From Haloarcula sp. CBA1129 (GTDB lineage Archaea > Halobacteriota > Halobacteria > Halobacteriales > Haloarculaceae): 64,000 bases of DNA. The notes under the pieces are model-generated. The model did no database searches. It had not been told where the DNA came from and worked only from the letters and a program-made list of their open reading frames with translations. Position 1 is the stretch's first letter, and every line of letters starts with the position of its first letter. Positions 16,182 through 44,456 of the stretch are shown piece by piece. Both the position numbers and the translations under genes were made by a program. Where the stretch lies: contig NZ_RKSM01000001.1 in NCBI RefSeq assembly GCF_008729015.1, forward strand, positions 1,426,001-1,490,000. Reading direction: 5' to 3'.

Positions 16182-16200
16182 AGCTATGATAGGTATGAAT

Positions 16201-16322
16201 GGTGGCGGCGAACCGCGTTTCCCAGAGGCTCGCGCACTCCAGTACTCCCCGGAACGCTGGTGGGCTTATCTTCCGTGTTCGGGATGGGTACGGGAGGCAA
16301 CCCCACCGCTGTGGCCGCCTAA
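16201..16322 (-). rRNA. rrf: 5S ribosomal RNA
   Basis: The minus-strand sequence begins ttaggcggccac and contains the archaeal 5S core cccgtacccatcccgaac, closing with the complementary gttcgccgccac. The ends pair to form helix I. The length of 122 nt fits haloarchaeal 5S. It is the last gene of the rRNA operon. Confidence 0.95.
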
Positions 16323-16384
16323 CGTCGAGTCGCGGAGTCGAACCGCGAAAGTACCAGTCTCGATCAACTCTCCACCGTGTGATT

Positions 16385-16450
16385 ACGTGCGATCCAGTTT
16401 GCGCCTGGACTCGTTCAGCGACGAGTTAAATCGTCGGTGAATGAGTCACA
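16385..16450 (-). repeat. 3' arm of the 23S processing stem
   Basis: This stretch between 23S and 5S is complementary in blocks to 19389-19436 ahead of 23S. The pairings are gtgcgatccag, cctggactcgttcag-type and gagtcaca blocks, broken by short bulges. In archaea such stems carry the bulge-helix-bulge site cut by the splicing endonuclease to release pre-23S. Confidence 0.75.
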
Positions 16451-16460
16451 GTGCGTATGA

Positions 16461-19382
<2,922 letters not shown>

Positions 19383-19388
19383 CGTCGT

Positions 19389-19436
19389 TGTGACTCGTTC
19401 AACTGAACGAGTCCAGTGGACGCCTGGATCGCACGT
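19389..19436 (-). repeat. 5' arm of the 23S processing stem
   Basis: Pairs with 16385-16450. The 14-nt core ctggactcgttcag is perfectly complementary to ctgaacgagtccag in the partner arm. A second perfect block (gtgcgatccag/ctggatcgcac) lies on the outer side. The arm starts a few bases before the 23S 5' end. Confidence 0.75.
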
Positions 19437-19650
19437 ACACACGGTTTCATTCTCGCCCCCAAGGTGGAGATGGTGGGCGAATCGACCCTTCCCAAGCGCG
19501 GTTTCACCCGGCTTGGTGCATCTGTCGTCGTACCACACTCGAACGCCGTCCCACACTTAAGGGGACGGATTCGGAGGCGGTACGAAGTACGGACCCGTCG
19601 GGAGTTGCACCCGACATCCCCGTGAAGGGATATCCGCCTCGGATAGGTCG

Positions 19651-19679
19651 TGTGAGCCCAGCGGGCCCATGCAGTAGTC
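19651..19679 (-). repeat. 3' arm of the 16S processing stem
   Basis: On the minus strand this reads gactactgcatggg then cccgctgggctcaca. It is complementary to 21304-21332 ahead of 16S: the first 14 nt pair perfectly, and about a dozen more pair after a small bulge. It loops out the whole 16S gene for endonuclease processing. Confidence 0.8.
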
Positions 19680-19757
19680 GGCGCTTGCCGACTCGCGGTG
19701 ACTTGTGGTCACCAGTCAATGTAGGTGGGTCAGGGCAAAGCCCTGATCCCGGTCAGT

Positions 19758-21229
<1,472 letters not shown>

Positions 21230-40378: not shown

Positions 40379-41560
40379 ATGAGTACACAAACCATGATAA
40401 TTCCTATGGATCTGCTATCCGAGAAACTCGTTCCAGAACACGCACACGAGGTCAAGGAAGAGGCTCGGGAGTTCGCCGCGGAGCATATCGAACCAGTCGC
40501 GGGTGACTACTATGCGTCCGGGGAGTACCCCTGGGAAGTGCTCGAAGCGGCCACGGAGGCCGGACTCGTCGCACAGGATATCGGTGAGGAGTGGGGCGGG
40601 AGCGGTTACGACCTCCAGCAGATGCTCGCGATGGCGGAAGAGCTGTACAAAGCCGACGCAGGAATCGCGCTGACGATCCAACTCGCCAGCTTCGGCGCTG
40701 AGATCGTCGAGGACCACGGCGCAGACTGGCAGAAGGAAGAGTTCCTTGAGCCCGTCGCCGCCGGCGACCAGCTTACCGGTCTCGCCGTCTCAGAGCCGGA
40801 AACAGGGAGCGACCTCGCCGGGATGACGACGGCCGCCGAGAAGGACGGCGACGAGTGGGTGCTCAACGGCGAGAAGTACTGGATCGGAAACGGTGTCGAG
40901 GCCGACTGGGTAACGCTGTACGCCAAGACCGGTGACGACCCGAACGACCGCTACGGGAACTACTCGATGTTTATCGTCCCGACGGACGCCGACGGCTACC
41001 ACGCCGAGCACATCCCCGAGAAGATGGGCTTCCGGGCGTCCAAGCAGGCCCACATCGTACTCGACGACTGCCGCATTCCGGAGGAGAACCTCATCGGCGT
41101 CGAAGGGGCCGGCTTCTACATGCTCGCCGAGTTCTTCAACCACGGGCGCGTCGTCGTCGGCGGCCACGGCATCGGCCTCGCCGCCGCGGCCATCGAGGAA
41201 GCCTGGGAGTTCGTCCACGACCGCGAGGCCTTCGGCAAGACCGTCGATGAGTTCCAAGCGGTCCAGCACAAACTGGCCGATATGCAACTTGGCCTCCAGT
41301 CCGCCCGAGCGCTCACCTGGCACGCGGCCGAGCGCGTCGCGAATCAGGAGAACGCCGGCTACTGGGCCGCACTGGCAAAAACCCAAGCGACTGAAGCCGC
41401 GATGGACTGTGCGGAGAAGGGGATGCAACTCCACGGGGGCCGGTCCGTCCTGACCGAGAACCGTATTTCCCGCGTGTACCGAGACGTGCGAATTCCAGTC
41501 ATCTACGAGGGAGCCAACGACATTCAGCGGAATCTCATCTACAATCAGGCCCCGCTGTAA
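40379..41560 (+). CDS. Acyl-CoA dehydrogenase
   Basis: 393 residues from the ATG at 40379 (a second ATG at 40406 gives MDLLSEKLVP, a more usual N-terminus). FAD-binding/catalytic landmarks are LAVSEPETGSDLAGM, WIGNGVEADW, FGKTVDEFQAVQHKLADM and the C-terminal VIYEGANDIQRNLI, which contains the family's catalytic-base glutamate (YEG). It oxidises acyl-CoA to enoyl-CoA, passing electrons to ETF. It lies directly before the replication-origin repeats. Confidence 0.93.
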   Translation: MSTQTMIIPMDLLSEKLVPEHAHEVKEEAREFAAEHIEPVAGDYYASGEYPWEVLEAATEAGLVAQDIGEEWGGSGYDLQQMLAMAEELYKADAGIALTIQLASFGAEIVEDHGADWQKEEFLEPVAAGDQLTGLAVSEPETGSDLAGMTTAAEKDGDEWVLNGEKYWIGNGVEADWVTLYAKTGDDPNDRYGNYSMFIVPTDADGYHAEHIPEKMGFRASKQAHIVLDDCRIPEENLIGVEGAGFYMLAEFFNHGRVVVGGHGIGLAAAAIEEAWEFVHDREAFGKTVDEFQAVQHKLADMQLGLQSARALTWHAAERVANQENAGYWAALAKTQATEAAMDCAEKGMQLHGGRSVLTENRISRVYRDVRIPVIYEGANDIQRNLIYNQAPL

Positions 41561-41625: not shown

Positions 41626-42308
41626 ACACCACCCTTCGAGTGTTCTTCGGCGAAGTCTGGTTCCCCTGTACGGCAGTTCGTTATTGGGCGGTCCGAACCG
41701 CCCAGTACACCAAGCGGGTCAGTCACTGTACAAAGGGTCCAAGACCGCTCATATTGGGTCAGTACACCACCCTACAAGTGTTCTTTCACTGCCTTCAGGT
41801 GTTCCCAAATCGGCTACAACTGCCCGCGGACAGTGTACACCTGTTCACACACCACCCTGCAAGTGTTCATACAAGATTGTTCGATCAAACGAAGTTCCCC
41901 TGAGACACCACGCTTCAAGTGTTTTGCGCTGTGGCTCGACGTTCCGATACGCCCTGTCACACCACCCTGCAAGTGTTTCACGCACTGAGTGAGAGACGAG
42001 AGTCCACGGGGACACCACCCTGCAAGTGTTCCGAAAAGCCCGTTTTGGACGGTTTTCTCGTCGAATCGGAGTTCACACCACCCTGCAAGTGTTTTCGAAA
42101 CGGAATACTGTACCGCTGTTGCGAAAGTCAACAGACACACCGGTCTGCAAGTGTTCTACACACTGTCCGGGGAGCAAATAGCACATGATGGCCCTGTTGG
42201 CACTTCGATTTCACGATCTATTGTGGGCACACACACCACCCTGCAACTGTTCTGGACTGCACAGTAGAGAGACTACTGCTGAACACACACACCACCGTGC
42301 AAGTGTTC
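41626..42308 (+). repeat. Array of ten 20-bp origin-recognition-box-like repeats
   Basis: The consensus acaccaccctgcaagtgttc occurs ten times in the same direction, starting at 41626, 41764, 41849, 41905, 41959, 42012, 42075, 42137, 42233 and 42289. Most copies differ by 0-3 bases. Spacing is about 53-63 bp through the centre and up to 138 bp at the left. It lies on the 3' side of the orc1/cdc6 gene. No gene with credible codon use occupies 41561-42344. I recall that a repeat-rich region after one cdc6 gene in Haloarcula hispanica acts as a negative control element for its origin; this may be its counterpart. Confidence 0.9.
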
Positions 42309-42344
42309 TGCCGTGTGAGCGGGTGGGGTGTGTAAGTACGCTGG

Positions 42345-43673
42345 CTACGTGAACTGCCAGAGGTTCTGTTGCTCGTCGTCGGTTGTGTCCGGTGCCTCGA
42401 ACTCGGTGGCCTCGTCTTCCAAGTAATGTTCGAGAATTCCGTTGACGTTACTCGGCACGGCGTCACTGTAGGATGACTGGAGCGCAGCGTTGATAATGTC
42501 GGTCGGGTCGTCGGTGACCTCGTAGATGTACTTACGTCCGCCCTTCCGGCCGAGGTTGCGTTCCGCAGAGCGGACCAGCCCCTGCATCGAGAGCTGGTCG
42601 AGAAACTCGTAAATCTTGCGCTCGGATTTCACGCGGCGACCGCTCGACTCCGCAATCGAGGAGTAGAGGTTATAGATTCGCTTCGTCGACGCCTCGTGTT
42701 TCGGTTCGATGAGTGCAAGCGTCGTCGCAAGGTACGTCAGCGCCTGCTGTGAACTCAGGTCATGTTCGAAGTAATCGAGGAGTTCGTCGGTCTCGATAGT
42801 GTCCGTCGCCCGGCGGGTGTGTGCTTCCGTCACGCCATCTGCACCCTCCATTCGTGCGTACTCCCCGGCCTTTTCGAGGATGCGGAGCCCCTGCCGAACG
42901 TCACCGCGCTCTTGTGCCGAGAAGGCCGCCGCCAGTGGGACGACATCTTCGCCGAGCACGTCCTCCCGGAACGCGATGTCGGCGTAGTAGCCCAGAATAT
43001 CCCGAAGTTCAGTTGCGTCGTACGGGCCGAACTTGATTTCTCGCTCTCCTAACGTCGATTTCACCTTGGGTTCCAGCACGTCAACGAACTTGAGGTCGTT
43101 TGAGATTCCAATGAGCCCGACCTTCGCATCGGTGATCGGCGTGTTCTCGTTCGCTTCAGCTCGGGGCAGTTCATAGAGGAAGTCGTTCCGTGCGTCCGCG
43201 GGAATGTTGTCGATCTCGTCCAGAATAATAAGAACGTTCCCACCGACAGCCTCGATCTCTTCGTAGAGGAACTCAAAGACGCTATCAGTGCTGTAGCCGC
43301 TTTCAGGAAGCTGGTTTTCGGGCTCTCGGAACTCGTTGACAAGGGTGTTGACCAACGCATACGCCGACCGGTAGTTCCGACAGTTTATCGGGCCGACAAC
43401 GGTGAGCGGGATATCCTCGGCCTCGGCTTTCTCTTCGAGTTTATCGCGAACCCACTTCGTGACAGCAGTCTTGCCGACGCCCGTGGGACCGTAGACGAAG
43501 ACGTTGTTGGGGTCGTGACCGACGATAACATCCTGAAGCGCGTTGATGTAGAACTCGATCTCCTCGTCACGGTGAAAGATCGTATCCGGCGTGAACGTGT
43601 CTTTTTTTAGCGGTTGCTTTCGTTCGAAAATCGCGTCAGTCCCATCGAACGGGTTCTCGTTCACGTCGACCAT
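42345..43673 (-). CDS. cdc6: Orc1/Cdc6 replication initiator
   Basis: 442 residues. AAA+ features: the N-terminal PLKKDTFTPDTIFHRDEE, Walker A VYGPTGVGKTAVTKWV, Walker B VLIILDEIDNIPADARN and sensor regions through LKFVDVLEPKVKSTLGE, which contains the initiator-specific helix region. The C-terminal winged helix (about 330-430) contacts origin DNA. It binds origin recognition boxes and loads MCM. Repeat copies lie on both sides of the gene, and half-copies abut its TATA box, so this Orc1 is the natural candidate to bind these repeats and regulate itself. Confidence 0.96.
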   Translation of the reverse strand: MVDVNENPFDGTDAIFERKQPLKKDTFTPDTIFHRDEEIEFYINALQDVIVGHDPNNVFVYGPTGVGKTAVTKWVRDKLEEKAEAEDIPLTVVGPINCRNYRSAYALVNTLVNEFREPENQLPESGYSTDSVFEFLYEEIEAVGGNVLIILDEIDNIPADARNDFLYELPRAEANENTPITDAKVGLIGISNDLKFVDVLEPKVKSTLGEREIKFGPYDATELRDILGYYADIAFREDVLGEDVVPLAAAFSAQERGDVRQGLRILEKAGEYARMEGADGVTEAHTRRATDTIETDELLDYFEHDLSSQQALTYLATTLALIEPKHEASTKRIYNLYSSIAESSGRRVKSERKIYEFLDQLSMQGLVRSAERNLGRKGGRKYIYEVTDDPTDIINAALQSSYSDAVPSNVNGILEHYLEDEATEFEAPDTTDDEQQNLWQFT

Positions 43674-43697
43674 CGTAACCCACTTTTTGAGTGACTA

Positions 43698-43705
43698 TAT
43701 ATAAA
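43698..43705 (-). promoter_or_regulatory. cdc6 promoter with origin half-repeats
   Basis: The minus-strand TATA element ttatatat is centred about 29 nt before the ATG at 43673, giving a leaderless message. Directly upstream of it (43720-43740) two tandem copies of tcaagtgttt, the inner half of the origin repeat, are positioned where bound initiator could block the promoter. Confidence 0.6.
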
Positions 43706-43756
43706 ACCAGTGACCATCGTTCAAGTGTTTCAAGTGTTTCTACGTCGAGTAGTCAC

Positions 43757-43776
43757 ACACCACCCTGCAAGTGTTT
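43757..43776 (+). repeat. Origin recognition box, left of the unwinding zone
   Basis: acaccaccctgcaagtgttt, 19 of 20 bases identical to the consensus of the downstream array and in the same direction. With the inverted copy at 44109 it brackets the AT-rich zone. Confidence 0.85.
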
Positions 43777-44108
43777 CTTCGGCCACCCTCGAAAACAGTG
43801 ACAAGCAGTATGCTCTGTCGACTCTTGATCTAACACACTTGAGTCCTGCGATTCTATATCCTCTGCGTTCTAGACTAGAACTAGGTCTAGTACTATTTTT
43901 TATATCTTATGGTTTAGGAAATAATATCTGGTTAGCTAAAAATAGCCCTGATGACTTTATTGATGCTATAACACCCCTAAAGCCAATTCTATACGCTTCT
44001 GAGAACCGGCCCGAACACAGAACTCCGATACAACTAACCGACTCTTCACTCGTTTAAATACGTATGAGGGGACCCACCCCTCCCCACCCCCACTCCTACC
44101 AACACCGA
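43777..44108. other. Putative replication origin: AT-rich unwinding zone
   Basis: The interval between two opposed origin boxes is AT-rich, most strongly about 43890-43950 (for example tactattttttatatctta). This is unlike anything else in the window apart from promoters. It contains four CTAG tetramers within 43870-43890 and a C-rich tract at 44070-44095 next to the inverted box. No coding frame is convincing. The layout initiator gene, opposed boxes, AT-rich core is the standard archaeal oriC design. Confidence 0.82.
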
Positions 44109-44128
44109 GAACACTTGCAGGGTGGTGT
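44109..44128 (-). repeat. Origin recognition box, inverted, right of the unwinding zone
   Basis: gaacacttgcagggtggtgt is the exact reverse complement of the 20-bp array consensus, so it faces the copy at 43757. It is the only inverted full copy found. Confidence 0.88.
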
Positions 44129-44153: not shown

Positions 44154-44456
44154 GATTTAATATAAAAAGAAGTGGCATCACCGGGCAGACGAAGCCAACT
44201 GCACGCTTGCGAGCGGGTGTTGCAGCGAGCAAGGCCAGCCACAGTGCCGACCGGGGCCGCGTACAGGTGGCCGAAACTTCGTCGTCGACGGCCACAGGGT
44301 CGCGACGGCCGCGAACCGCGGAACAACGGCGCGTGGAAAGAGAAACGATGCCGCGAACGGCAACGAGCCGCTGGGGCCGAGGCACTGCTCAGCCATGACC
44401 TCTCGGTATTCGAGGGGGTGTCCGGGACAGGGGACTGAGACGCAGTCCATGACAGA
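44154..44456 (+). other. Structured GC-rich region, possible non-coding RNA
   Basis: A strong TATA-like ttaatataaaa (44154-44164) precedes about 270 nt of GC-rich sequence. It has short hairpins, such as gtggccg/cggccac (44267-44295), ccgcg-aac-cgcgg (44309-44321) and gccg-cgaa-cggc (44350-44361). The longest frames on either strand encode very basic or Cys/Pro-rich peptides without the acidic bias or GC3 of haloarchaeal genes, so I do not call a protein. It does not match what I remember of SRP RNA or RNase P RNA. Confidence 0.3.

Follow-up and report, generated by a model that had tools for sequence, protein, structure and literature searches.

The window, by which we mean the whole 64-kb stretch of DNA analysed here, is part of a 3.48-Mb contig from a Haloarcula-type genome and contains the layout oriC2-cdc6E-oriC2D: an AT-rich core between two opposed ORBs, then an initiator gene, then an array of ten ORBs beyond the gene. 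ORBs are counted as copies of the 19-mer ACACCACCCTGCAAGTGTT, and the features are the following.

41626-42307, plus strand: oriC2D-type array of ten ORBs, all in one orientation (19-mer scan; box columns conserved over spacers)
42345-43673, minus strand: cdc6E, Orc1/Cdc6 initiator gene, 442 aa (TIGR02928, E 2e-109)
43696-43708, minus strand: TATA-like element of the putative cdc6E promoter, ~27 nt from the start codon, with a leaderless transcript predicted from the sequence
43711-43738, minus strand: composite of a degenerate third ORB (43711-43729) and an adjoining 9-nt half-site (43730-43738)
43757-43775, plus strand: left (proximal) core ORB, 0 mismatches, found in 24/24 loci
43837-43853, minus strand: 17-mer AATCGCAGGACTCAAGT, specific to Haloarcula
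43885-43944, no strand assigned: AT-rich block
43899-43913, minus strand: conserved ACCATAAGATATAAA within the AT-rich block, from the alignment
44077-44091, minus strand: G-tract GGGGGTGGGGAGGGG, directly inside the distal ORB and on that side only
44110-44128, minus strand: right (distal) core ORB, 0 mismatches, found in 24/24 loci

Comparisons were made over 24 loci, 15 from Haloarcula (the window included; Cdc6E 97-100% identical) and nine from relatives with Cdc6E at ~74-84%, namely an H. pelagica plasmid, Halobellus, two Halorubrum, two Natrinema, Natribaculum, Saliphagus and Haloparvum. Allowing up to 3 mismatches, 12 copies of the 19-mer are found in the window, against a mean of 0.01 in 100 dinucleotide shuffles; these are the two core boxes and the ten same-oriented boxes of the array, which a sequence-only reading of this DNA had rightly described as separate from the core. 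The same reading had the opposed boxes at 43757-44128 facing an AT-rich core, and this stands: both ends are exact 19-mers, their inverted match is perfect out to 22 nt with the arms 334 nt apart, and the core between them (43776-44109) is 44.6% GC against 60.4% for the window, a value equally low in 0.49% of 334-nt stretches. The observation itself is therefore confirmed. Within the core, the lowest-GC 60-mer of the entire window starts at 43885, and this AT-rich block is a likely candidate for the unwinding element. A four-run G-tract inside the distal box is found in 13/15 Haloarcula cores and 1/9 relatives. The haloarchaeal ORB has a halophile-specific G-rich end; the box end here reads GGGTGGTGTGTG, rich in G but with its G-string broken. 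The 17-mer, with pattern variants allowed, is present in 15/15 Haloarcula cores and in 0/9 relatives. A search of the genus at up to 2 mismatches found it at oriC2 of the 15 carriers and in five isolated places elsewhere (two in G009 and one each in G010, G026 and the non-carrier G028); since a reversed control pattern also gives five, these isolated matches are at chance level.

Two other possible core features were considered and dropped. Over the 24 loci the core boxes are 261-441 nt apart, start to start, with no fixed helical phase by eye. Uninterrupted (CAA)n runs, loosely reminiscent of the bacterial DnaA-trio, lie beside the AT-rich stretch at about -250 to -310 from the cdc6 start in five of the nine relatives (L016, L017, L019, L020 and L021), and an interrupted run is seen in L018; as none of the 15 Haloarcula cores has one, (CAA)n is not a general origin element and falls outside the make-up of this origin.

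The array boxes start at 41626, 41764, 41849, 41905, 41959, 42012, 42075, 42137, 42233 and 42289. Across the 24 loci, 204/204 array boxes share the orientation of the proximal core box (194/194 in the main count and 10/10 in L023, where the reading frame ran on); the Haloarcula arrays are homologous, so that these counts are not independent, and the nine relatives alone give 45/45. In 14 Haloarcula arrays conservation is 0.901 in box columns and 0.628 in spacers, a difference reached by 0/1102 shifts of the mask. Box number is 8-12 in 14 complete chromosomal Haloarcula arrays versus 2, 4 and 5 on three complete plasmids, but larger chromosomal arrays are only suggestive, because Haloarcula is one clade and because two relatives, L015 with 8 boxes and L023 with 10, are on contigs of unassigned replicon type. 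The array boxes and the proximal core box together form direct repeats flanking cdc6E (41626-43775). In the Halobellus relative, L015, the eight boxes downstream of cdc6 recur almost perfectly every 46-47 nt, whereas the Haloarcula arrays are irregular.

The cdc6E product has the Cdc6 lid and winged-helix domains (Pfam) and is 97-100% identical in the 14 other Haloarcula. In 13 of these 14, only 0-3 of 442 residues differ from the window protein while 34-44% of fourfold sites do; in the remaining one (L014) the figures are 14 residues and 47%. From these substitution patterns, Cdc6E is under strong constraint. No phage relative of Cdc6E was found in the phage collection at E 1e-20. Deletion of cdc6E is described in the accessible parts of PMC10989794 and PMC4441112 as having no evident effect on laboratory growth.

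The identity of the locus follows from a comparison with H. hispanica, where oriC2D was published as 11 boxes in 722 bp (Wu et al., PMC3936714; here and below we draw on the accessible part of that paper). Genome G013 of our set (L035) is recognised as H. hispanica by an Orc1/Cdc6 match that begins at base 28 of its contig C2, just as in NC_015944 of H. hispanica ATCC 33960. In it, cdc6E and the acyl-CoA dehydrogenase gene compute to 722 bp apart, stop codons allowed for, and the scan finds 11 boxes there; these are the published figures, and therefore the window carries the orthologous oriC2. The corresponding region of the window has its ten boxes in 784 bp (acyl-CoA dehydrogenase ORF end at 41560; cdc6E end at 42345). 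The rRNA genes at 16200-21229, ~23 kb from the core, fit the distance of ~20 kb between an rRNA operon and Haloarcula oriC2 given in the portion of PMC4441112 available. The origin type is already described, and its layout has been described and experimentally examined in a close relative, H. hispanica.

At up to 3 mismatches there is, as the sequence-only reading had it, exactly one core box in each orientation, but that reading overlooked a weaker third box and half-site. The third box reads as a plus-strand copy of the 19-mer with 5 mismatches, sits just outside the left core box, and with its half-site lies directly upstream of the TATA-like element of cdc6E. At one position, -64 to -67 from the cdc6E start, 24/24 loci have a half-site merging directly into a complete box, AACA[CG][AT]TG[AT]AACAC[AT]TG, so the composite is not noise. 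Mismatches in the complete box number 1-3 in the nine relatives and 3-4 in the 14 other Haloarcula; with 5, the window has the most degenerate copy. The composite suggests a third role for the repeat, in which Cdc6E may adjust its own synthesis; position alone would be compatible with activation or repression of the gene. Among the records listed in text searches of the literature, no title or abstract opening mentions a Cdc6 box at the cdc6E promoter, which is weak evidence of absence.

Of 32 genomes of the genus, 16 have boxes with 2 mismatches or fewer, and precisely these 16 carry Cdc6E. Thirteen of the 17 genus genomes that have no module at this site were compared (G011, G032, G033 and G034 were left out), and in 13/13 no part of the array, cdc6E or the core was matched between the acyl-CoA dehydrogenase and hydrolase genes. 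The gap between those two genes is 77-137 nt in nine of these genomes and 638-1269 nt in four, and ~2.7 kb in the window. Since the whole module is absent at the site in every case, array, initiator and core behave as one module. The acquisition of the origin in the Haloarcula branch is reported in the accessible part of PMC4441112; the exact insertion site, the acyl-CoA dehydrogenase/hydrolase gap, is read in the present comparison.

The hydrolase gene beyond the core, which we take from its sequence to belong to the MBL-fold (lactonase-like) family, has an intact copy in relatives such as L137, while the window keeps a remnant of it at 44248-44413 with ~570 bp missing at 44320. Because this block is split at 44320 in relatives, a structured RNA had been entertained; the block is the hydrolase remnant instead, and Rfam gave no match for it in three relatives.

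Some copies of the box lie far from the module. Three distant places in the genome with up to 3 mismatches (G000:C1:1796237, 1114534 and 881976) were considered as extra control sites and are not part of the finding. The copies with 2 and 3 mismatches are inside a coding ORF and are best read as coincidence. The copy with 1 mismatch lies at the end of a coiled-coil ORF, and as no match of that region in other genus genomes covers the box, it is not conserved. Separately, four Cdc6E-bearing genomes carry, away from cdc6E and at different sites, a small module made up of an oriC2-type box and, 13-19 nt further on, a box of a different type that faces it, GTTTACTCCGGAAACAGTGGTGTG or a near variant (L060, L061, L063 and L077). 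In G007 (L061, 1463-1481) an ORB-like pair comes directly after the last repeat of a CRISPR-like array, and in G020 (L073, around 1501) a second-type box follows a CRISPR-like repeat; we presume these to be CRISPR from the spacing and sequence of the repeats.

Function has been addressed genetically in H. hispanica (PMC3936714). The sequence-only reading had made its case hang on autonomous replication of the core, and the orthologous core replicates: a 684-bp oriC2 region does so in a delta-oriC2 host. The oriC2 origin is active in vivo and is dispensable. For the array, oriC2D alone has no replication activity, lowers the level of an oriC2 plasmid, and could not be removed from a strain still carrying oriC2; it represses oriC2 according to box number, also in trans, and the authors regard titration of Cdc6E as “likely.” Single-box deletion is reported in the accessible text for oriC1, not for oriC2. 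The part of a review available to us (PMC4010727) calls the model “partly tested,” and PMC3528665, likewise in part, predicted this origin and reports that it has replication activity. Hence the notion that the same repeat activates at one place and acts as a sink at another was already published. The two roles match the H. hispanica model; the proposal that asymmetry of layout is what separates them lies outside its published support, and the sequence-only interpretation is in sum partly supported.

The best account of the locus is as follows. Cdc6E, encoded next door, would bind the two opposed core ORBs; the AT-rich stretch between them would open, and replication would start; the activity of the origin itself is shown in H. 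hispanica. The ten ORBs beyond cdc6E would bind Cdc6E, lower the free protein and so hold initiation down, a negative effect shown in H. hispanica with titration as its presumed cause. Array, initiator gene and core would have entered the chromosome as one module between the acyl-CoA dehydrogenase and MBL-fold hydrolase genes, and the weak box and half-site at the promoter probably let Cdc6E adjust its own synthesis. That the segment is the oriC2 origin of a Haloarcula main chromosome and works in this way, with initiation, array brake, module entry and promoter self-adjustment taken together, we regard as highly probable. Against it stand the degenerate promoter box of the window and the uniform orientation of the arrays.

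The alternative that survives best concerns how the array restrains the core. Instead of soaking up protein, it might be paired with the core by Cdc6E, by handcuffing as in iteron plasmids. The single box orientation in every array is compatible with pairing; it is not predicted by simple titration, and tandem duplication would yield it. Module relatives sit on complete plasmids, oriC2 plasmids are incompatible with an oriC2 chromosome, which the authors of PMC3936714 themselves call plasmid-like, and the array works in trans as well. However, the dose effect of box number and the action in trans are equally predicted by titration, and the accessible text of PMC3936714 describes no observed pairing. 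The published data in that text do not separate the two mechanisms, and we consider handcuffing unlikely.

Considerably less probable is that the opposed boxes mainly regulate transcription of cdc6E, with firing secondary in this strain and the origin perhaps dormant. The weak composite at the promoter would fit this, as would the decay of the hydrolase gene next to the core in the window, and oriC2 can be lost from H. hispanica (PMC3936714), which fits too; but cdc6E is intact, the core boxes are perfect, the AT block is conserved, Cdc6E and the boxes are strongly constrained, and the orthologous origin fires in vivo (PMC3936714). That the boxes are an ordinary dispersed repeat with no part in replication is hardly credible, for beyond a few solitary copies elsewhere in these genomes there is the exact co-occurrence with Cdc6E, selection on boxes but not on spacers, and a refutation already in hand for the H. 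hispanica ortholog from deletion and plasmid tests (PMC3936714).

Returning to the account of an origin held down by its own array, the quality of the boxes is graded by place: 0 mismatches in the core (window), 0-3 in the array, and at the promoter 3-5 in Haloarcula versus 1-3 in the relatives. An intriguing though doubtful possibility is that the locus is a Cdc6E controller with three stations, in which the core starts replication, the same-oriented array absorbs or pairs the protein, and the promoter box senses what remains and sets the output. Through tuning of box quality and array size, a copy-control unit of a plasmid could then have become a tame origin on a chromosome, and the 17-mer is perhaps a host-factor site added in Haloarcula. 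Three features may be new here: the conserved composite at the promoter, the 17-mer and the uniform orientation of the array. The use of one box type as both start site and brake is confirmed across many Haloarcula species, and these three features are concrete targets for studying the taming of an acquired, plasmid-like origin once it is part of a chromosome.

Among known systems, the closest is the H. hispanica oriC2-cdc6E-oriC2D locus (PMC3936714; conservation in Haloarcula, PMC4441112, both as far as accessible), which has the same box, inverted core pair, AT-rich core, downstream array and neighbours, and a Cdc6E differing from that of the window at 2 of 442 residues. The window departs from it in having ten boxes over 784 bp rather than 11 over 722 bp, a weaker promoter box, and a remnant for the hydrolase gene. 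The haloarchaeal oriC1-cdc6A origin is similar in its AT-rich region between two inverted ORBs and its G-rich tract directly inside the ORB; at oriC1, however, the G-tracts lie on both sides and act as an enhancer, whereas oriC2 has one on one side only in those 13 Haloarcula cores, and the part of PMC3936714 available mentions no titration array downstream at oriC1. The E. coli datA locus, a DnaA-titrating site cited by Wu et al., likewise groups initiator boxes away from the origin and reduces initiation, titration at oriC2 being the H. hispanica proposal. Unlike datA, whose initiator belongs to an unrelated family, the oriC2 cluster is next to the gene for its initiator and moves together with the origin as a single module; the oriC2 array may be said to work like datA by analogy, as opposed to being a member of its class. 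Lastly, the Sulfolobus ucm element, with its binder UBP (PMC12141716, in part), is a conserved non-ORB element inside an archaeal origin at a position comparable to that of the 17-mer. The likeness is one of position only, and ucm, rather than a homolog, could serve as a precedent for a non-ORB element such as the 17-mer.
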